Positions 5,174-34,642 of a stretch of DNA of 34,642 nt are shown piece by piece. Below the pieces are notes generated by a model. The model had not been told where the DNA came from and searched no databases. It saw only the letters and a list, made by a program, of their open reading frames with translations. A program made the translations under genes and the position numbers. Source of the DNA: Deltaproteobacteria bacterium PRO3 (lineage in GTDB: Bacteria; UBA10199; DSSB01); contig SZOV01000028.1 of NCBI GenBank assembly GCA_030263375.1, positions 1-34,642 of the forward strand. Direction: 5' to 3'. The stretch's first letter is position 1. The number at the start of each line of letters is the position of its first letter.

Positions 5174-6076
5174 ATGAAACCCGCTTGGCTCAAATCGAGG
5201 ATCCCCTCCGGGCAAAACTACCTCCAGCTGAAGGGCATGCTCAAAGAGCTGCGGCTGAACACCGTCTGCGAGGAAGCCCACTGCCCCAACATCGCCGACT
5301 GCTGGGAGCGCCAAACCGCGACCGTGATGATCATGGGCGACATCTGCACTCGGAGCTGCGGCTTCTGCGCGGTGAAGACGGGCAAGCCTTTCGAGCTGGA
5401 CGCGCAAGAGCCCGAGCACGTCGCCGAGGCGATCGCGCGGCTGGGACTGAAGCACGTCGTCATCACCTCGGTGGACCGCGACGACCTGCCCGACGGCGGG
5501 GCCGGGCACTTCGCCAAGACCATCCGCGAGGTCAAGGCACGCTGTCCCGAGACCCAGGTGGAAGTATTGATCCCGGACTTCCGCGGCAAGGGCGACAGCT
5601 TGCATCGCATCTTCGAGGCCGAGCCGCACATCCTCAACCACAACCTCGAGACGGTGAAGCGGCTCCAAAAAACAGTTCGCCCCCAGGCCAGCTACGAGCG
5701 CTCGCTGGAGGTGCTGCAACTCGCTTCGCAGGCGGGAATGGTGGCGAAGAGCGGCCTGATGCTGGGCTTGGGCGAGAGCGACACGGAATTGCGCGAGGCC
5801 CTGCGCGACCTGCGCGAGGTCGGCCGCGTGACGATCCTGACTTTGGGGCAATACCTGCGCCCGACGCCGCAGCACCTCGAGGTGCAACGCTACGTACCGC
5901 CGCTGGAATTCGAGGCCTGGGGGAGGTTCGCCGAGGATCTGGGCTTCGAATACGTCGCCAGCGGGCCGATGGTCCGCAGCTCCTACCACGCCGACGAGGC
6001 GGCGCGCCGCTTCGCCCCGACGCCCCCCGAGGCGGGCAAATCGGACCTACCTGGGCTTACCTTGAAAACGCCTTAA
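5174..6076 (+). CDS. lipA: lipoyl synthase (LipA)
   Basis: A 300-residue radical-SAM enzyme that inserts two sulphurs into protein-bound octanoyl groups to make lipoyl cofactor. The auxiliary 4Fe-4S cluster motif is C32-EEAH-C37-PNIAD-C43, the radical SAM motif is C58-TRS-C62-GF-C65, and the RSSY motif near the C-terminus supplies the Ser ligand of the auxiliary cluster. VVITSVDRDDLPDGGA and LNHNLETV are also diagnostic. Length is normal for the family. No lipB or lplA is in the window. The 3' end overlaps by 30 bases the end of the convergent giant gene at 6047. The start ATG at 5174 fits the usual short N-terminus (KPAWLKSRIPSG). Confidence 0.97.
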   Translation: MKPAWLKSRIPSGQNYLQLKGMLKELRLNTVCEEAHCPNIADCWERQTATVMIMGDICTRSCGFCAVKTGKPFELDAQEPEHVAEAIARLGLKHVVITSVDRDDLPDGGAGHFAKTIREVKARCPETQVEVLIPDFRGKGDSLHRIFEAEPHILNHNLETVKRLQKTVRPQASYERSLEVLQLASQAGMVAKSGLMLGLGESDTELREALRDLREVGRVTILTLGQYLRPTPQHLEVQRYVPPLEFEAWGRFAEDLGFEYVASGPMVRSSYHADEAARRFAPTPPEAGKSDLPGLTLKTP

Positions 6077-9000
6077 GCGGACCGACGAATCGACTTCGGA
6101 TGCTTTGAACCCGTCGGACACCAAGGCCCGTTTGAGTTCCGAAAACCGGCCCGTCGGGAGGGTGACGCTGAGATAACCGCGCCCCCGCTCGACTAACACC
6201 GGCGGGAGCGGGTCGGGAAAGCTGAGCGGAGCAGGGACCAGCAAGGCGACGGAAAAATCCGATTTCGGGTCCGGCAAACTCCGGAGCGCCACCCACACGG
6301 CGCCATACCAAAACCGCCTCCGTGCCTGGATGTCGCGGGAATCTTCCGGCGTCGGCAAAGAGACAAGCTTCGGGTTGGCGTAATTCCACACGCGCCGCGC
6401 CTCCAAAAGCCCTCGCTTCCGCAAAATTCGCAGGGCCAGCGTCAGCTGGGGATTTCGGTAGGTCCCGTATTGATGAATTTCTTTGGTGACGTCCCGAGCC
6501 AGGGTCCAGTCCATTTGCTTCGGGTAGCGCGGGGCGAGCCCGGCGATGCCGGCCAAGACGTATTCCTGCGCGACCTTCCAAAGGTGGTGATCTCTCGGCA
6601 GGTTCTGGCGGCGCAACAAGAGGACCGCATCCAAGATCAATCCCGGCCTCTCGAGGGCGAACAGCCTCAACAAGATCGGCGGGACCGCGGGCGGATTCGC
6701 CTCGAGGATTCTCGACAACTCCCGCCAAGCCGCCTTGTCGCCGGCCTCGACCCGCTCGATCAAAGGCAAGTACCGTCGAATGTAGGAATAGCTCTCGGAC
6801 GTCGGCCCCTGCCGCTCTTGGACCTCCGGCACGGGGAGCCATCCGCGTCGTGCCAAGGCCTGATTGACGTCCTGCAATACATAATCACGGAGCGCCCCGA
6901 ACCGTTCGAAGAAATTTTCGGTCAAGGCTCGCAGGTCCCCCAACTGGGTCAGGCCGTTTTCCGACATCAGCCGCTGGGTGAGGGTGGCTAGGCCCAGGCT
7001 TCGGAGGGGCGTGGCCATTTCTCCCTCCCAATTCGGCCGATGGAACGGATCCGCGGGCTCTTCCCGGTGAAAGGGGAGAAGGTACCGGCTCATGGAGGGA
7101 TGCCGCAGCTTGCTTAAGGTCTCCAGCTCGATCTGCCGCACCCGCTCGGGGGTTATCATGCCTAGCCTAGGCGCTATCTTATTGAGAGTCGAGGGCTCGG
7201 CCTCGCCCAGCCCATAGCGCAGCTCCAACACTTGCCTTCTATTGTCGGAAAGCTGGGACAACACGGCCCGAACATTCTCCGCCAATCTTTTCGCATCCAA
7301 TCTCTCGACCGGCGTCTCCGCCTCCGGAGGCAGGCGCGGCTGCTCGCTCCCCCATAGCGAAGACAGCTTGACGTTTCCCGCGACGTCCAAGGCGTCCAAA
7401 TAGTTGGGATCGAATCTTTCTTCCAAACCCTCGACCGCCGCCTCGCGATCCTTGGCCCCGCGGCCCCGCTCGGTCACAAAGGCTCCGATCGCATTGCGCA
7501 GGACCTCCGAGTCAGCGACGCCGGAGTCGAGTAGCCAGCGATAGACTTCCTCCAAACTTTGCGGCTGAAGGGAAAACTGGCCTCGAAACCGGTGGATCAT
7601 CGTGCTGTATTGCGTTTTGGAAATGGCGCCGCTTCCCACCAAGGACCGCAAGCTTCCACTCCCCGCCTGGAGTAGGACCGCCCTTCGGAACAAGCGCGTC
7701 AGGTTCCTCTGGGCCTCCCCCATCTCCGCAGGAAAGGGATAGGCGGTTTCCAATAAAACCATTTTGTCCTGGAGCCAGGCCTCGCCCAAAGCGGTCGGGG
7801 AAATTCCCAACCGCTTGGCAAGCTGAACCGCCTCCAGATGGGTCTCCGGCAGGATACCGTGCAGCAGGGCGTCGCACTCGGCGAGCCGCAGCTTCGCCTG
7901 CTCGGACATGCGGAGGACGTCGCCGCCGAATTGCTCCTGCAAGACCTCCCGAATTTGCCGAGCGAAGGAGTCCGTCTCCGCTTGCAGAGACGCCGTCTCC
8001 CCCGAAGCGCCCGGCGTCAAGAGCGGCTTGCGGCCCCGCGGCGGCTTGGCGGGGGCGGACCCCTTCGCTCCCACCTCGGTCTCGCCGGGGCGGTAGACCC
8101 GGCCGGGGGGTGGCTTGCGATACGCGCCCAAGAGGGTGGCGGCGCTCTGCGCCCGCTGCAAGGGCATCGCCCTGCCCTCCATCGTGACGATCAAGACATC
8201 GCGCTGCGCCTCGCCTTCCTGGCGGGCCAGCGGGCGGCTGGAACGCTGGGCGAAGAGATTCCAGGACGAGGTCTGGTAGCCGTGGATCACGCCGTGGACG
8301 CCCAAGGCGCGAAACGAGGCGGCGAGGCGGCGGACGCCGATCAAGACCTTAGCGCCCTCCCCGCTCGAGAATCGCTGCGTAACCAAGTCGACGTTTCGGT
8401 CGGCGGTCTCGCCCGTGACCGCCACGGCATAAGCGGGGCCCAGGCGGGCGTTGAAATCCGCCTCCAAATCCTTCGCGGCCTGGACGGACTGGACGAAGAC
8501 CATGGCCTTCTTCCCGCCCAAGTACTGCTCGTAGGTTTCCAGGATCCTGCGCCGATTTTCCGGGGTATTGCGCATCGCCACGAGGGACTCCGCCCCGTCC
8601 TCGACCCGCTCCGAATCCTCCGCCGTTTTTCCGTAGGGAACCTCCAGGCCGTAGACCCGATGCAGGTAGCCCTCTTGGACGAACCAATTCAGCCCGCGAC
8701 CGGCGAGGAAGGTGTCGCCGAAGAACTCCCGCACGTGACGGCCGTCTTCGCGCTCCCCAGTCCCGCCCAGTCCCAGGGCGAACTTGTCCCGGCTCCGCGT
8801 CGGACGTCCTTCGCCGTCGACGAAGCCCAAGGTGCCCAGGATGAGCCGCCAGCTGTCGGCCAAGACGTAGGTCAGCTCGTCGACGACGACCAGGCCGAAA
8901 CGCTCCGGTTGAAAGGGAAGGTCCCCGGCCGCGGCCTGCTTTAAATACCTCGCCAGGCTGTAGACGCTCGCCACGACGACCTCGCCGTCCAGATTTTTCT

Positions 9001-10522
9001 GTTGGGCGTCGAAGACGCTGACCCGGCCGCGGAAGGTGGTGGCGAGGTCCCTCAAGACCTGGGACTGGACGATCTTGAAGGGAGAAAGGACCAGGGTTTG
9101 CTTTCGGGGGAAGATGCCGCGGGCCGCCTCGGCCAAGGGGCCGATGATCAGGGATTTGCCGGTTTGAAAGGGCGAGAGGATGTAACCTCGATCGAGCAGA
9201 GTTGGGACGGGCCCCTGGCCGCCCTGGCTCGCGGCCTTGCGCATCGCCTCGACGGCGGCTTTCAGGTATTCGCGTTGGTAGGGCCGCAGGCGCAGGCCGG
9301 CCGCTTCGGGAGGCAAAGAGGGTTCGGCGGGGTGCCCTCCGCGGGCCTCGAGGGGTGCGACCTCCGGGGCCTTCCCGGCGGGGGACTTGCCCTGGGCCTT
9401 CGGATCCAGGCTCGAAGCCAGATAAACCGGGGAGCGCGGACCGGGATCGAGGTTGGGGACGGCGACGGTCGGCCCGGACACCCCGCCCGCCATCGCCAAG
9501 GGACGAAGCGACTCGAGGCGATTTAGCGTCGGGACAGCTTCAGCGGCGCGCAGATTCAGCGCCCGTTGCAAGCGCGCAAATCTCTCGCCTAGGACCCGAT
9601 GGCCGAGCCGGCTGCCGATGCCCAAGCTGAACATCGAGGCCAAGGTGTCGGTGACGGCCGTCGCGCCGTCGACGTGCGGGCGCAGACCGACCTCCGCCTC
9701 GACCCGATGAGCCGCCATCAGGCCTAGGAACATCGCGACCTGCGGCAACGCCGCATGCTGAAACTTCTGAATCCTCCCGCCGAGGGAGGGCGCGCCCTGC
9801 AGCGCCCGCTGGGCCAAGTATCCAGAACCCTTCAAGGCCGCGAGGGTGATGGCCGCCCCCGCCAAGTCCTTGGCGACGCTCCCGCCGTCCCAGGAGACCG
9901 CTTCGCCTCCTAAATCCCGCAGTCCCCGGCTGGACAGCGCGAAGACCGGGACCTCCGCAGCGTAACCGAGCAGCCCGGCCGAGAGACGGGCGCCGAAGCC
10001 CCGCCGGTGCCAGGCGGCGCTCGCGCCGGAAAGCAGGCGGCCGAGGCTCGCCGCGCGCACCGACTGAAAGACGACCGAGCCCGCGATCATGGGGACGATC
10101 ATCCGGTAGTCGGTCGCGTCCCGCACGAAGCGCCCGGCCAAGACCTCGAAGCGGGCCCCGAAGGCGCCTTGGCCCTGCAAGGCCTCGAGGCGGGACCGGG
10201 CGCGCGAAACCACCTCGGCGGCGGGGCCCGGCGGCGGCTGCGAATCCAGCGCGGCGATCGCGGCGTAGAGCTCGGCGGCCGACGCGAGCTCTCCGCCCTC
10301 GCGCAGCCGGTCCGCGAAGCCTAGCGCGCCTTGAAAAAACAAGGTCGGATCGGTCTCCAGACCCAGCTGCCGCCATTCGCGCGCGTAAGCGGGATGGGCG
10401 AGGCAGGGCAATGCTTGGAAGGCCTCCAAGAACTGAGACACGGAGTTCGACGGCGCGGTTCCCGGGAGGGGATCGCGATGTGCATGGCCGCGCGACAGAC
10501 GCGGGCCGGCCCCGGCATGCAT
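6047..10522 (-). CDS. giant fusion: membrane-like module + SF2 helicase-like + sigma-70 region 4-like + alpha-CTD-like
   Basis: 1491 residues from the ATG at 10522, which has AAGG at good spacing; the frame is open to a TTG at 10708 (1553 aa). Residues 1-140 are helical. Residues 142-325 form a hydrophobic Gly/Ala-rich module shared with two other genes here. A linker follows, then a DEAD/ResIII-like helicase region at about 410-800: RLRPYQREYL, a Walker A-like SPFQTGKSL (451-457), VVVDELTY (DELT at 548-551), LGLGGTGEREDG where TATPERxDG is usual, and QRSSRPLARQ as a motif VI remnant. Residues 1069-1141 resemble sigma-70 region 4 (LSDNRRQVLELRYGLG, ERVRQIELETLSKLRHP). Residues 1171-1228 resemble the RNA polymerase alpha C-terminal HhH domain. 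The last 260 residues are unrecognised. Altered helicase motifs leave catalytic activity uncertain. DNA binding and contact with transcription are inference. Confidence 0.85.
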   Translation of the reverse strand: MHAGAGPRLSRGHAHRDPLPGTAPSNSVSQFLEAFQALPCLAHPAYAREWRQLGLETDPTLFFQGALGFADRLREGGELASAAELYAAIAALDSQPPPGPAAEVVSRARSRLEALQGQGAFGARFEVLAGRFVRDATDYRMIVPMIAGSVVFQSVRAASLGRLLSGASAAWHRRGFGARLSAGLLGYAAEVPVFALSSRGLRDLGGEAVSWDGGSVAKDLAGAAITLAALKGSGYLAQRALQGAPSLGGRIQKFQHAALPQVAMFLGLMAAHRVEAEVGLRPHVDGATAVTDTLASMFSLGIGSRLGHRVLGERFARLQRALNLRAAEAVPTLNRLESLRPLAMAGGVSGPTVAVPNLDPGPRSPVYLASSLDPKAQGKSPAGKAPEVAPLEARGGHPAEPSLPPEAAGLRLRPYQREYLKAAVEAMRKAASQGGQGPVPTLLDRGYILSPFQTGKSLIIGPLAEAARGIFPRKQTLVLSPFKIVQSQVLRDLATTFRGRVSVFDAQQKNLDGEVVVASVYSLARYLKQAAAGDLPFQPERFGLVVVDELTYVLADSWRLILGTLGFVDGEGRPTRSRDKFALGLGGTGEREDGRHVREFFGDTFLAGRGLNWFVQEGYLHRVYGLEVPYGKTAEDSERVEDGAESLVAMRNTPENRRRILETYEQYLGGKKAMVFVQSVQAAKDLEADFNARLGPAYAVAVTGETADRNVDLVTQRFSSGEGAKVLIGVRRLAASFRALGVHGVIHGYQTSSWNLFAQRSSRPLARQEGEAQRDVLIVTMEGRAMPLQRAQSAATLLGAYRKPPPGRVYRPGETEVGAKGSAPAKPPRGRKPLLTPGASGETASLQAETDSFARQIREVLQEQFGGDVLRMSEQAKLRLAECDALLHGILPETHLEAVQLAKRLGISPTALGEAWLQDKMVLLETAYPFPAEMGEAQRNLTRLFRRAVLLQAGSGSLRSLVGSGAISKTQYSTMIHRFRGQFSLQPQSLEEVYRWLLDSGVADSEVLRNAIGAFVTERGRGAKDREAAVEGLEERFDPNYLDALDVAGNVKLSSLWGSEQPRLPPEAETPVERLDAKRLAENVRAVLSQLSDNRRQVLELRYGLGEAEPSTLNKIAPRLGMITPERVRQIELETLSKLRHPSMSRYLLPFHREEPADPFHRPNWEGEMATPLRSLGLATLTQRLMSENGLTQLGDLRALTENFFERFGALRDYVLQDVNQALARRGWLPVPEVQERQGPTSESYSYIRRYLPLIERVEAGDKAAWRELSRILEANPPAVPPILLRLFALERPGLILDAVLLLRRQNLPRDHHLWKVAQEYVLAGIAGLAPRYPKQMDWTLARDVTKEIHQYGTYRNPQLTLALRILRKRGLLEARRVWNYANPKLVSLPTPEDSRDIQARRRFWYGAVWVALRSLPDPKSDFSVALLVPAPLSFPDPLPPVLVERGRGYLSVTLPTGRFSELKRALVSDGFKASEVDSSVRLRRFQGKPR

Positions 10523-10682
10523 AGACACCTTCAAATCTTTGAATTTAAGCCTTAGGTAGGTAAGCCACGACTTATCGTTGGGAGGACCGAAAAGTTGCGC
10601 CGCCGCGGAACCGAAGACTGCGGCAACTGCCGCCGCCTGCCGCCGATAATCTCTCACACCTCGGGGGCCCCGACGGAGCCCC
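10523..10682. promoter_or_regulatory. divergent intergenic region between two giant genes
   Basis: 160 bases separate the preferred starts of two divergent large genes. The left part is A/T-richer (CTTTGAATTTAAGCC around 10537-10551) than the surrounding GC-rich coding sequence, as expected of a promoter region. I see no convincing -35/-10 pair. GGAG ends five bases before the TTG start of the right gene, and AAGG precedes the ATG of the left gene. Confidence 0.35.
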
Positions 10683-13600
10683 TTGTCTCCCCCGTTTTTC
10701 AACTTCAACCGCCGCCTGCCGGGCCTCGCGACCCTGGCCCGCCTGCAGCCGACGCCGGTGAGGCCCGGCGAGCCCGACGCGTCCTATTTGGACGCCCGCC
10801 GGGAGGCCTTCCGCGACAGTTTCGCCCGCGCGGGGGAAGGGGATCCCGCCGCGCCGGCGGGCGACCTCGAGGCGGCGATCACCCTGGCCGAAAGCATGGC
10901 CCGCGGCGGCTCGCTCGGGGAGTACGCGGCGGTGCTCAACTTCCGCGCCCTGCAGCTGGAAAGGGCCCGCGAGCCGGCCGAGCGCGGTCGGATCCGCGCG
11001 GCGGCGCTGCGCTGGGCGGAGGAGGCGTTGCAAGCCGTCTCCACCGCGCCAGGCTTCACCCGCGACCGGGTCCGCGCCCTCTACGACAACGTCCTGGCCT
11101 TGAGCGCCGTCCTCGCCCGCGAGGGCCGGGCCGAATTACCCGAGGCAGAACGGGAATTGCTGCGGAGCTTCTTCGTCCAGATCCGCGGCGGCATCGAGCA
11201 GCACCGCCTCGAGAGCGGGTCCCATCCCGAGTACGCGCCCATCCCCGAATATTTCGAGAGCTACGCCCGCGCCGAGCAGGCCCTGTTAGAGGGCGAGACC
11301 GAGGCGGCGCTGCGGGCCTTCCTCGAGACGCGCGCGTCGATTCGCGACCTGCCCGGTGCGGGCCTGTTTCGTACCCGCGTCGAGCGCGGGACGGAGTACG
11401 CGATCCGCGCCCTGCAGGGCGACAGCTCGGGGACCTTTTTGGAAAACCTGCGCAGCCGCTCGAGCCTCGACGCCCTCCTGCTCTTCGACCAAGTCGACGG
11501 CGGCGCCCAGGCGGATCTACAAGCCTTAAGCCTGGCGGCCCTCGCCCTTGCGGAGGGAGACTGGCGCGGTGCCGGCGCCCGCGGCCTCTTGGAATTTCTG
11601 CGCGGCGTCCCCGCCTATCCGGAAGGCGAGGTCACCGCCGTCCTTCAGGATTTGGAGGCCATTTACGCCTCACGGCCCGAGTTTCGAAGGGCCTGCAAGG
11701 CCGGACACTTCGCCCCGGCCGACGCCTCTACGGACGCCGTATGCCGGGCCCTGCTCCGGCACGCCGCAATCGCTGCACGGCGCATCCTCGAACGGCAAGA
11801 TCAGGAACCCTATGCAACCGTCTTTCGCCGCGACGCCGAAGACCGACCGCTGCGCCTAGCTGTGGAACGATTGCAAGAGTCGCCGGAGCTCACGCGCGAA
11901 ATCCGGAACCTCTTGAACGTTCCCTCCAACCTGCCGCAGCGCCTCCTGGTGCAGCAGCTGGTGGAATACGGATCGCTGGCCGAGACGATGCTGGAGAGCC
12001 TGCCCGCCGCCACGCGCGAGCTGGCCGCCTATGCCGACTTCTCGCGCGCCGTCCTCCAAGTCGCCGATGGAGGCGCGGACCGACGGCGTCGGCGCCTCGA
12101 ACAGCCCCTGTCGGATCTGGTCGAATCGCTGGGCGCCCTCTCCCGCGACGACGAACGCTACGCCCCGGCTTATGAGTATTTCTTCCGCAACCTCGCCGAG
12201 ACCGAGGGCGAGATCGCGCCCGGCGTGACGCTTCCGGAGGCCCTGCGAAACCGCGCCGCCGCCCTGCGCGCCGCGCTCACCGACTTCAACGGCCGCCGCC
12301 TCTTCCGCCACCTGAGCTCCGCCGACTCGCTGCTCGGCCTGGCCGGCGGCATCGCGCTGACCGAGCTGATGCCCCTCGGCCTCCTGCGCTGGGCCCGCAA
12401 CGGCGGGACCTGGCTGCGGGCCGGACGCCTCACCTGGCAGTCCGAGCTGGCGGTGGGTCTGGGCGTCGGCGTCGCAATGTCGGCGGTCGGCGGCGTCCAC
12501 CACTTGGCGACCTCGCCGCGCCCCTGGCGCGAGGAGCTCCCGCGGGCCCTGCCCGCGCTCGCCCTCGGCACCCTGTTCAGCAGCCTCGGCATGGCGGGGA
12601 CCATGGGCCTCGGACATTTAAGTCGCCGCGCCTTCCTCGCCGAGGGCGTGGCCGGTCCCGCGGCGCTGCGCTACTGGGGCGCCCGCGGCCTGACCTTCTT
12701 GGGCGGCGGCGGGCTGATGTTGGGCGCCGGCGTCCTGACGGAGGGAACGACCACCGGACATTGGCGACTACCCTCGGCCGAGACCGCCGCCGAGACCTAC
12801 CTGCACTTCCTGATGTGGGACTTGGGCGCGGCCGGGCTGCGGCGCTTGGGCCACCGCTTCTGGTGGCGCGCGCAGCTGGGGCCGCAGCTCCTGCGCACGC
12901 GCGTCGAGCCGATGAGCGCTCGCCTGCAAGAGCGCAATCCCTGGCTGGCGCAAACGCCGGGTGAGATCGAGGCGCTGGAGGCCCATCTGGGGAGGCGGCT
13001 CCTCTCCGGACGCGACATGGCCGACCTTGAGAGCGGTCTCGCCGGAGGCCTGGAACCTTACTGGTACGATGGAACGATTGCCTTCCGCGCGCGCGCCGAG
13101 CCCGGGCCCCGCCGTGCGGAGCCGGCCCGAGTCGCGGCGCCTCCCGCCCCGGCCGACCGCGCCGACGAGGTCCGCGGCCCCGACCGGGCCTTGCCGGTCG
13201 AGCGGCGCCCGATGGACGCGATCCACAACATCACCTTCGAGACCCTCCAGGCCCTCTGGAACCTCCCGATGCGCGCCCTGCCCCGCGAGATCCTGAGCAG
13301 TCCCCTCCTGCGCCCGATCCACCACCTGCGAGTCGGCGGCCATGATTTTTACTTAAGCCGCGTGATCGAGGCGGTGCGGACCCGATCCAACGGCGAGACC
13401 GATCGGCGCCGCTACGTCTTGGCCTTGGTACCGGTCGAGGTGGAGGGACAAAGGGTCTTGAAGCGCCGGATGTTCTACGTCTCGGCCTCGGACGCGGGGG
13501 CCTGGCGGGCGAGCCCCTACATGGCCGGCGACGCCCACTTGGCCAAAGGCGTGGGCCGCCACTACACCCAAGAGACGCAGCCGGTCTGGGAGATCGCCGA

Positions 13601-14336
13601 GGCCCTGATGCGCCTGGAGCAAAGCGGACCTCGGCCCCACGAGATGCCCTTGACCCAACTCCTGCGCTACATCTCCACCGCCAGCGAGGCCCTGGGTCCT
13701 GCGGGGGTGCGCACGATGACCTTGGGCTTTCAAGAGGAAGTGGATTTTCCGCGACCCCTGGGCATCAGCAACCTGCGCGCCATGCGCCCCGGCAGCGCCT
13801 TCGCCCTGCCGCCCGGCTGGGGCTGGGGTTCGACCCACGACATCCAAAACACCCTGCGGCAAATGATCAGCCTCTCCTGGCCCGACGGTTTCATCCCGGA
13901 CTTCCACGGCTCTCCCACCCGCGCGATGGCCCAGCCCAACAGCCTGCTGGGCCCCTTGGTCTTTCGGGAGTTCCGCGGCGCCACCGCCGTCGACGGCAAC
14001 ACCGGCCGGACGCGACCCTTGGTCTGGATCATGGGGGAAGACGGCGCGGGCCGCGCCTGGGTGCGGCACATCCACTACGGCGACAGCGAGGTGAATTCCT
14101 ACGGCGTCTACGCGGACGTCCTCGAGTCCGGGATACTGACCTCGAAACCCCTGGAGTACTTCGAGCAGGCCGCCCTGCTGCCCGAGCCGCTGCGCCGCCC
14201 CTTCAACGGGGAATACGTCGACATCAGCCCGGCCCTCACCCTGCTCGAGCCGATCCGACGCTACCGCGAGTCCCGGGGCCTGAGGCCGATGCTCCGCGAG
14301 GAAGACACGCCGACGGTCCTGAACCCCGAACGCTAA
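10683..14336 (+). CDS. large protein: helical repeats, hydrophobic module, unrecognised C-terminal domain
   Basis: 1217 residues from a TTG at 10683 with GGAG upstream. Residues 1-540 are Ala/Leu/Arg/Glu-rich helices that look like TPR-type repeats (for example LAESMARGG, YAAVLNFRALQLERA, ALLEGETEAALRAF). Residues 545-730 hold several hydrophobic Gly-rich segments (LLGLAGGIALTELMPLGLL, ALALGTLFSSLGMAGTMGLG, LTFLGGGGLMLGAGVL) and resemble the module in the divergent gene at 6047 and in the gene at 32669. After a Pro/Ala linker (805-840), residues 845-1217 form a soluble domain (RRMFYVSASDAGAWRASPYM, KGVGRHYTQETQPVWEIAEAL, GWGWGSTHDIQNTLRQM) that I do not recognise. There is no signal peptide. 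Its stop overlaps the stop of the convergent CPBP protease gene. Confidence 0.8.
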   Translation: MSPPFFNFNRRLPGLATLARLQPTPVRPGEPDASYLDARREAFRDSFARAGEGDPAAPAGDLEAAITLAESMARGGSLGEYAAVLNFRALQLERAREPAERGRIRAAALRWAEEALQAVSTAPGFTRDRVRALYDNVLALSAVLAREGRAELPEAERELLRSFFVQIRGGIEQHRLESGSHPEYAPIPEYFESYARAEQALLEGETEAALRAFLETRASIRDLPGAGLFRTRVERGTEYAIRALQGDSSGTFLENLRSRSSLDALLLFDQVDGGAQADLQALSLAALALAEGDWRGAGARGLLEFLRGVPAYPEGEVTAVLQDLEAIYASRPEFRRACKAGHFAPADASTDAVCRALLRHAAIAARRILERQDQEPYATVFRRDAEDRPLRLAVERLQESPELTREIRNLLNVPSNLPQRLLVQQLVEYGSLAETMLESLPAATRELAAYADFSRAVLQVADGGADRRRRRLEQPLSDLVESLGALSRDDERYAPAYEYFFRNLAETEGEIAPGVTLPEALRNRAAALRAALTDFNGRRLFRHLSSADSLLGLAGGIALTELMPLGLLRWARNGGTWLRAGRLTWQSELAVGLGVGVAMSAVGGVHHLATSPRPWREELPRALPALALGTLFSSLGMAGTMGLGHLSRRAFLAEGVAGPAALRYWGARGLTFLGGGGLMLGAGVLTEGTTTGHWRLPSAETAAETYLHFLMWDLGAAGLRRLGHRFWWRAQLGPQLLRTRVEPMSARLQERNPWLAQTPGEIEALEAHLGRRLLSGRDMADLESGLAGGLEPYWYDGTIAFRARAEPGPRRAEPARVAAPPAPADRADEVRGPDRALPVERRPMDAIHNITFETLQALWNLPMRALPREILSSPLLRPIHHLRVGGHDFYLSRVIEAVRTRSNGETDRRRYVLALVPVEVEGQRVLKRRMFYVSASDAGAWRASPYMAGDAHLAKGVGRHYTQETQPVWEIAEALMRLEQSGPRPHEMPLTQLLRYISTASEALGPAGVRTMTLGFQEEVDFPRPLGISNLRAMRPGSAFALPPGWGWGSTHDIQNTLRQMISLSWPDGFIPDFHGSPTRAMAQPNSLLGPLVFREFRGATAVDGNTGRTRPLVWIMGEDGAGRAWVRHIHYGDSEVNSYGVYADVLESGILTSKPLEYFEQAALLPEPLRRPFNGEYVDISPALTLLEPIRRYRESRGLRPMLREEDTPTVLNPER

Positions 14337-32668: not shown

Positions 32669-34642
32669 ATGCTGTTACCCGGTCTTTTCGATCGTTCCGT
32701 TTCCCCGCGCCACACGACAATACACGACCCCGAAACCCTCGAGCCTTCGAGCCGTGCGGCCCTGCGCCGCGCCCTGGGCGAGGCTGGATACGCGGAATAC
32801 CGCTCTATCTTGTCCGACCCTGAGGCGGAGCTCCGCGCCGAAGCCCTGCTTCATTTCGCCCGCCGTCAGGAGCTATCCGGCAACCTCGCGGTGGCCTCGG
32901 AGCTTTACCAGGGCCTCGATGCCGCTGACGCGGAGGTTCCGGCGAACATCGCCGCCCGGGCTCGATCCCAGCGCGACGCGATTCTCGGCGTCGGCGACGG
33001 CGGGCGGCGTGCCGAATTCCTGCTGCGCCGCCTCGCCCTCGAGGCCTGCGACCCGGCCGGCATCGCCGGCATGGTCCTCGCCGGCGGCGTCTTCCGCGTC
33101 ACGCGCCTGGCCGCGCTCGGCCGCCTGGCGGCGACGCCTTCCCTAGGAATGATCTCCCGCGGCTTTCTCGCCCGCGCCGCCGCCTCGACCGCGGCCTTCG
33201 CCCTCGAGGCCCCCGCCTTCACGCTGGGCGCGCGGGCGGCGCACCAGGTGCTGGGCCGCGAGGTCGACTGGAGCGGCCGCGCCCTGGCCAGGGATATTGC
33301 GTCGAGTTATTTGGTGTTGGGGGGATTGAAGGTCGCAGGCTGGGCCGGAGGGGCGGCGTATCGCCATCTTGCGGGATCCGCAGGGACCCTTCGCGAAGGG
33401 CCCCTCCAGCTGCTGTTCCAGCAGGGCGGGATGTTCGGAGGCATCCTCTTCGGCCACTGGCTCGAGGCCGAGGCGGGCTTGAGGCCGCGGCAGTCCGGCG
33501 CCACCACCCTCGTCGATTCCCTGGCGATGCTCGCGCAATTTAACGTGGCCGGTCGCCTCGCCTCGCGGGCCCTGGGCGAAGGCTTCCATGCGCGGGAGCG
33601 TGCCCTGGACCTGCAAACCGAGGCCCTGGCTCGTTCCCTTCCCTGGATACGTCCCCTCGCCCCCCGTCTCGCGCCGCAGCCGGCCTTCGCCGGGGTGGGC
33701 ACCGAGGCCGCATCGTCCGGCGCCGTCCACGACCTGATCCGTGGGGCACAGATCCTGCAAATGTCCATCTTCAAGGACAGCAAGGGCTCGCGCGGCCCCG
33801 AGCCGACGGGCGCCCGCGAGTCCGGCGTCACGCGCAGCGCCGAGCCGAGGGTCTCTCCCGAGGCCATGACCGAGGAGGTCGATTTTTTCCTGAGGGGGGT
33901 CGAAAACCCCGAGCTGGGCCTGCGCGCCTTCCTCGATTCCCTGCCGATCGCCGCGGCGGTCGCGCGCATCAAGGGCGAGGAGGGCTTCGGCCGCATTTTC
34001 GTCGTGAACCAAAAATTCACCGAACTCTTCGGCTACACCGAGCGCCAAGCCGGGGAGCACCCGATCACCCATTTCTTCAGCTTAAAATCGGCTCCCTTCA
34101 TCGCGGCGCGCATCTGGACCATCCTGCGGGGCGGCATCTTCCAGGCCACCAAGATGGATTTCCTCTGCCGCGACGGCAGCTATCGCCAGATTTGGGGAAG
34201 CGGGGTGGTGCGGAGCGTCTACGGCGAGACGCTGGCCTTCGGCTTTTACCAACCGCGGGACGAGAGCCAAACGACCCAGCCGCCGGTACTCGCGCCGCTG
34301 AAGGTCTTTCAGGCCGCCGACCCCGCCCGGCTGCCGTCCCGGGACGCGCAGGGGTTTTTCGAACTGCGCTCCACGATCGAGCTCAGCCTGCAGCTGACCA
34401 ATCCGGACTCGCCCCTGATTCGCCATTTTTTGGAAAATGATTTGAATGTCCGCGTGACCGTTCCGGACAATTACGCCACCCAGAGTTATGCGGAATCCCT
34501 GACGCGGGGCTTGAATCTCTTGGGCCGCCGGACCCAGATCCCAGCCGGCCGGCGCTTTTCGGTGGAGCTGGTCGACAGTTCGGGACGACGCCACAGCTTT
34601 TTGCAGTGGCTGAAACGGCCGGATGGATTCGTTCCCAGCGAG
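32669..34642 (+). CDS. large protein with shared hydrophobic module and PAS domain (3' end outside window)
   Basis: An ATG at 32669 with AGGGAG upstream opens a frame of 658 codons that reaches the window edge without a stop. Residues 30-125 are helical (EAELRAEALLHFARRQELSG). Residues 130-318 are a hydrophobic module that aligns by eye with the one in the gene at 6047: FALEAPAFTLGARA, EVDWSGRALARDIASSYLVLGG, FGHWLEAEAGLRP, SGATTLVDSLAM, RALGEGFHARERALDLQ. After a disordered linker comes a PAS domain at about 415-530 (LDSLPIAAAVARIKGEEG, NQKFTELFGYTERQAGEHP, FLCRDGSYRQIWGSGVVR). The C-terminal part beyond 540 is not recognised. It is probably a signal-sensing member of the three-protein family in this window. 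Confidence 0.85.
   Translation, partial: MLLPGLFDRSVSPRHTTIHDPETLEPSSRAALRRALGEAGYAEYRSILSDPEAELRAEALLHFARRQELSGNLAVASELYQGLDAADAEVPANIAARARSQRDAILGVGDGGRRAEFLLRRLALEACDPAGIAGMVLAGGVFRVTRLAALGRLAATPSLGMISRGFLARAAASTAAFALEAPAFTLGARAAHQVLGREVDWSGRALARDIASSYLVLGGLKVAGWAGGAAYRHLAGSAGTLREGPLQLLFQQGGMFGGILFGHWLEAEAGLRPRQSGATTLVDSLAMLAQFNVAGRLASRALGEGFHARERALDLQTEALARSLPWIRPLAPRLAPQPAFAGVGTEAASSGAVHDLIRGAQILQMSIFKDSKGSRGPEPTGARESGVTRSAEPRVSPEAMTEEVDFFLRGVENPELGLRAFLDSLPIAAAVARIKGEEGFGRIFVVNQKFTELFGYTERQAGEHPITHFFSLKSAPFIAARIWTILRGGIFQATKMDFLCRDGSYRQIWGSGVVRSVYGETLAFGFYQPRDESQTTQPPVLAPLKVFQAADPARLPSRDAQGFFELRSTIELSLQLTNPDSPLIRHFLENDLNVRVTVPDNYATQSYAESLTRGLNLLGRRTQIPAGRRFSVELVDSSGRRHSFLQWLKRPDGFVPSE

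Follow-up and report, generated by a model that had tools for sequence, protein, structure and literature searches.

Transcription initiation of the sigma-70 type in bacteria normally proceeds without an ATP-driven motor for opening the DNA. ATP-driven motors that act on RNA polymerase, an activity that we also propose for the protein described here, include RapA, Mfd, and HelD; these polymerase-associated ATPases bind the enzyme via other domains, and we know of no sigma region 4 or alpha-CTD in any of the three. By fold, the closest described proteins are RadD (YejH), an SF2 DNA-repair ATPase, and XPB/Ssl2 of TFIIH, which has an SF2 dsDNA translocase fold. R-loops are kept in check by RadD (PMC6606805). 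This ATPase by itself shows no helicase activity on branched DNA, and its homology to XPB is limited (PMC8887467); PMC9049331 describes a zinc ribbon in it. A third group of comparable proteins consists of MzaA and PglW, large multidomain defense proteins that carry, as here, a sigma-70 region 4 or an alpha-CTD-like domain; in PglW, the domain is like the CTD of the alpha subunit (PMC12839542). Our literature search found no description of a helicase fused to sigma region 4, and a search on MzaA returned unrelated papers only.

We analyzed a 34,642-nt stretch of DNA from Deltaproteobacteria bacterium PRO3 (contig SZOV01000028.1), hereafter the window, in which one gene joins a RadD/XPB-like ATPase core to sigma region 4. 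The features of this gene are as follows:

6047..10522 (-): whole gene, 1491 aa plus stop, ATG start at 10522, one uninterrupted ORF
10572..10597 (-): promoter motif CAACTTTTCGGTCCTCCCAACGATAA, 49 nt 5' of the ATG; the site of ortholog L009 is identical
9533..10453 (-): N-terminal helical domain, residues about 24-330, common to ~80 proteins of the genome (AlphaFold2)
8123..9316 (-): SF2 ATPase core, RadD/XPB-like, residues 403-800 (Pfam ResIII, Foldseek, motif alignment)
7742..7969 (-): XRE-like helix-turn-helix (HTH) region, tentative, residues about 852-927 (model and weak Pfam matches in homologues)
7070..7318 (-): sigma-70 region 4 of RpoD type, residues 1069-1151 (Pfam, RpoD-type models, RpoD alignment)
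6839..7006 (-): alpha-CTD-like helical segment, weak, residues about 1173-1228 (hhalign)
6050..6805 (-): C-terminal region without family, residues 1240-1491 (no credible Pfam match; dN/dS 0.60)

A sequence-only reading of this DNA had proposed that helicase and sigma region 4 lie in one polypeptide, and this was borne out: both domains exceed their Pfam cut-offs within the 1491-aa ORF, and the combination is kept in L009, an ortholog from a second MAG of the genus that is a single chain of the same architecture with 86% identity. All sequences compared come from MAGs or draft genomes. Chance or chimera can be dismissed as the source of the fusion, since L009, on an independent contig, and relatives in G012 and G009 have the architecture. 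The ATG at 10522 is taken as the start because it fits the promoter motif; an in-frame TTG exists at 10708, but it lies upstream of the motif and is disfavored by that position, and the few differences upstream of the ATG show no bias to third codon positions. Rfam gave no match in the window. In an AlphaFold2 model of residues 395-1491, confidence (pLDDT) was about 85 for the helicase, about 80 for the HTH region (whose counterpart in homologues gives weak Pfam matches to HTH_3/HTH_8), about 77 for sigma-4, and about 42 for residues 1161-1234. Adjacent to the gene, at 10683-14336 (+), is a divergent neighbor of 1217 aa with a glycine-rich hydrophobic middle and no Pfam match.

The same reading had placed a sigma-70 region 4 at residues of about 1069-1141, and this is confirmed. 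Pfam Sigma70_r4 (PF04545) matches residues 1087-1141 (E 9.2e-10, 38.3 bits vs. a cut-off of 24.1), RpoD-type models and solved sigma-A chains widen the match to 1067-1151 (sigma-A chains: E 1e-11 at 1067-1149), and regions 4.1 and 4.2 align with the genome's own RpoD across the whole module. In the recognition helix, xERxRQ, the E, R, and Q, which we take to be the RpoD contacts to the -35 element, are kept in the query and its ortholog; R584, the first arginine of the helix, is replaced by P or V. Sigma regions 2 and 3 gave no Pfam match anywhere in the chain. The protein has region 4 in common with RpoD but lacks regions 1-3, and therefore cannot be a sigma factor. Sigma-4 is also the fastest-evolving folded module, with 66% identity and a dN/dS of 0.73 between congeners, compared with 94% identity for the N-terminal domain and 92% identity and a dN/dS of 0.24 for the helicase. 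This rapid change suggests relaxed or diversifying use, and because of it, a plain DNA-binding role is still conceivable; the low constraint is what speaks most against a contact with RNA polymerase that is under tight constraint.

The ATPase core is recognized by Pfam ResIII (PF04851) at residues 410-562 (31.6 bits vs. a cut-off of 22.5, E 1.8e-7). Its top Foldseek match is RadD (6jde, 8h5y; 2.6e-15 over about 410 columns), the closest PDB fold, followed by SauUSI and then by XPB/Ssl2 of Pol II initiation complexes (4e-12). The ResIII-type core is shared with RadD, and the NCBIfam RadD model NF053632 matches the query at 4.9e-9 and 35 bits, below its equivalog cut-off of 720. Unlike RadD, the query has altered motifs I, III, and V; an added HTH region, sigma-4, and N-terminal domain; and, because no cysteine occurs in residues 403-845, no zinc ribbon. 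The likeness to XPB is at the level of fold, and association with an initiation module is a parallel that we propose: XPB is a subunit of a complex, whereas in the query, a bacterial sigma region 4 fused to the ATPase would provide the link.

The helicase motifs had been described as altered, and the protein as perhaps a structural relic. The first of these statements stands for motifs III and VI: in an alignment of helicase cores, the canonical motif III [S/T]AT is absent with GGTG in its place, and motif VI (QRSSRPLAR, with Q759 and R763) retains its arginines shifted relative to the canonical QxxGRxxR. Yet the protein retains Walker A GK[S/T] (K456) and the motif II DE (D548, E549), which runs counter to a relic, as do the clade-wide distribution of the alterations and the low dN/dS of the helicase. 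The kept motif I lysine and motif II DE, together with that dN/dS, argue for a working but specialized ATPase.

In a tree of 16 helicase cores, every member with sigma-4 or alpha-CTD falls into one clade of seven (support 100/99), and the only other clade member, L125, is cut by a contig end before its C-terminus. All seven have the Walker A form P-x-Q-[TV]-GK-[ST] and the FR or YR version of motif V; GTG replaces the ATP of motif III in six, the sigma-4 protein of G012 being deleted there. The other nine cores have PTGxGK[T], mostly TATP, and an acidic motif V, and the motif I lysine and motif II DE are retained in all 16. These changes across motifs I, III, and V suggest that the protein is a translocase and not a strand-separating helicase. 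Proteins that pair helicase with sigma-4 but lack the N-terminal domain occur in two further families of the class, which brings the pairing to three families in all: the G012 relative has 919 aa (sigma-4 Pfam 2.3e-8), and the gene of the G009 relative is split between two contig ends (6.5e-16). Other clade members, from G010 and G012, end in a true alpha-CTD at the same place as the RNA polymerase-type module of the query, in two copies in L027 (Pfam 6.6e-34) and together with a weak sigma-4 in L026 (2e-13). Judged by this distribution, the pairing of helicase with sigma-4 is older than the query gene, and its recurrence in distant relatives speaks for an as yet undescribed class of motors, which would act on or near the transcription machinery. 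In a search beyond the phylum, a contig scan with strict peptide patterns gave only three loci with the architecture, each from this same lineage, so that its absence elsewhere is tentative. Matches in plasmids and phages were helicase-only or sigma-only, and IMG/VR gave no match to the architecture.

A genome-maintenance ATPase of the RadD kind, with the sigma-4 and alpha-CTD-like parts serving as DNA-binding units that make no contact with RNA polymerase, is the main rival to a role in transcription, and we regard it as unlikely but serious. RadD is the closest fold and its NCBIfam model matches weakly; sigma-4 is poorly constrained; the canonical relatives end in HNH_repeat or other repeats, and HNH_repeat arrays in the place of sigma-4 make it possible that the latter is also a DNA-binding add-on; and a UvrD/PcrA gene is the head-to-head neighbor of the G012 relative. 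What tells against it is that one clade contains two different RNA polymerase-type modules, whereas the nine canonical relatives in the tree have neither, and that the query sigma-4 is RpoD-like across both 4.1 and 4.2.

For the alpha-CTD-like domain that the sequence-only reading had placed right after sigma-4, this chain shows a remote resemblance only. PF03118 gave no match at residues 1165-1235 even at E<=1 in a search of the own genome, an alpha-CTD HMM specific to the class scored the segment at 1.3 bits, and its pLDDT is about 42. On the other hand, hhalign matched the segment to the class alpha-CTD alignment over 54 columns with 46% probability, and when 48 windows of the protein were compared, more than 18 columns aligned only in those that overlap 1141-1255, with none outside exceeding 3%. 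The residues with which a true alpha-CTD contacts DNA appear to be missing from the segment, which is probably a degenerate relative that no longer binds DNA as alpha-CTD does. Elsewhere, a 501-aa frame of G015 (L124) consists mostly of alpha-CTD-like repeats (at least six matches), and proteins of about 890-950 aa in G042 (L121) and G028 (L122) have sigma region 4 at the end, two genes of the L121 kind lying side by side in G042.

The recurrence of these modules in defense proteins raises a further reading, in which the ATPase would act against phages or plasmids and would use its sigma-4 or alpha-CTD to detect RNA polymerase or invader promoters, as MzaA and PglW may do with their modules. 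The PADLOC models for MzaA and PglW match the query sigma-4 region (1.1e-7) and the alpha-CTD of L027, respectively, and SauUSI is a near fold. However, the PADLOC matches span the shared module only, to which the likeness to MzaA and PglW is limited. The neighbors are housekeeping genes for the query (Mur ligase, LD-carboxypeptidase, lipA, hisG) and for the G012 relative (AsmA, UvrD) alike, no MZA or BREX type 2 partner genes or defense-island context were found at either locus, and the promoter and N-terminal domain of the query are held in common with enzymes and kinases. We therefore consider a defense role improbable, the least probable of the readings weighed here.

Two further features, the N-terminal domain shared within the genome and the promoter shared across the phylum, had been missed by the sequence-only reading. 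The N-terminal domain is all-helical, of ~330 aa, and modeled with a pLDDT of mostly 85-97; no PDB fold matched it at E<0.4. In the 3.55-Mb genome, residues about 40-400 match ~80 further ORFs, and these each continue with a different region. Pfam found 59 families in these C-terminal regions (56 regions of the window's genome, plus L119 of G001), including PAS/HATPase kinases, acetyl-CoA carboxylase, fatty-acid-synthase parts, protein kinase, GGDEF, permease, and PLP enzymes. Among the 46 genomes of our phylum set, the domain is plentiful in five of the seven that belong to the family and occurs in one further genome of the same order; elsewhere, it is scarce or missing. We infer that it serves as a common scaffold or location tag. 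A stronger version makes this domain decisive, as a delivery or compartment tag, with the protein acting in another cell or in an internal structure beside ~80 differently armed proteins. The sharing of one domain among unrelated C-terminal parts is indeed what a sorting tag would show, and the fold is confident and without PDB match; but the attached acetyl-CoA carboxylase-like enzymes, permease, histidine kinases, and sigma factors suit the cytoplasm over export, the G012 and G009 relatives do without the domain, and transmembrane-level hydropathy is rare, all of which makes this version improbable as well, if marginally less so than a defense role. A plain transmembrane anchor is likewise not supported, as only five of 59 rows reach a hydropathy of 1.6.

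Other members of the domain family are of separate interest. A second one lies in the window at 32732-33808 (+), its ORF passing the window end and its C-terminal part having no Pfam match. Two proteins of ~2400 aa in the window's genome (L062, L093) carry it fused to biotin carboxylase, ACC_central, and carboxyltransferase domains, in a layout like that of eukaryotic acetyl-CoA carboxylase. In L176 (G001), L177 (G002), and L178 (window's genome), a single chain joins it to sigma-70 regions 2-3 and to a flavin amine-oxidase domain (Pfam covered L176 alone), and the FliA/WhiG model also matches related ORFs of two congeners. L119 joins the domain to sigma region 4 (2.9e-15) without a helicase, and in L120 (G004), it precedes several alpha-CTD-like repeats, one above the Pfam cut-off. 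The 1217-aa neighbor and the N-terminus of L027 were considered as distant members, and no support was found.

Genes of the domain family are also linked by the motif CAACTTT-N13-CGATAA. With up to one mismatch allowed per half, 18 of 58 upstream regions contain it, compared with three occurrences within 180 kb of coding sequence. The window's genome has 15 exact matches (0 for the reversed pattern), and G009 has 54 (1 for the reversed pattern); in G009, an ORF follows at a median distance of 22 nt from motif to ORF start, as expected of a promoter. In the wider helicase family, eight of the 16 genes, among them two near-copies, have the motif within 300 nt, and in G009, it precedes a three-gene operon whose last gene is the sigma-4 helicase. 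In its GCCGATAA half, the motif is similar to the -10 element of sigma-28 promoters. The FliA/WhiG model matches 45 of the 46 genomes, some by RpoD-like matches only, and most also encode a FliA-like sigma of 260-340 aa, below the curated cut-off, which we infer to read the motif. Found across the phylum, the motif would then be a shared sigma-28-like promoter. Most of the 30 G009 genes scanned behind the motif (L156-L195) have no Pfam match, and the remainder include GGDEF/HAMP, HEAT, SLT, MFS, and collagen-like repeats.

Taken with the fold and the modules, we favor, tentatively and at just short of an even chance, an ATP-driven dsDNA translocase of RadD/XPB type that is brought to RNA polymerase or promoters by sigma-4. 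The recruitment of polymerase, also suggested by the sequence-only reading, gains support because RNA polymerase-type modules recur in one helicase clade; the contact itself, like translocation and the biological role, is what this model predicts. The gene would be expressed from the sigma-28-like promoter within a phylum-wide regulon, and the N-terminal domain would put the protein at a site or scaffold of the ~80 domain-bearing proteins. The RpoD-derived sigma-4, perhaps assisted by the HTH region, would bind the beta-flap of RNA polymerase and/or -35-like DNA, and the two RecA-like lobes would hydrolyze ATP and pump DNA near the polymerase. The outcome could be promoter opening, as by XPB in TFIIH, or clearing of polymerase and R-loops, as proposed for RadD.

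More speculative, and less probable than RadD-like maintenance, is a bacterial analogue of TFIIH, in which XPB/RadD-like translocases docked via sigma-4 or alpha-CTD would open, remodel, or police particular promoters and would be expressed from a dedicated sigma-28-like regulon; in the taxonomic order of the organism, the protein would further have joined the large set that has the N-terminal domain in common. A motor clade that repeatedly acquires docking modules for RNA polymerase would be a natural ATP-dependent motor wired to sigma-70-type transcription, and sigma-4 plus ATPase would make compact constructs for testing how a motor engages polymerase. For the organisms themselves, the common N-terminal domain and common promoter mark a large unstudied regulon in an uncultured lineage.
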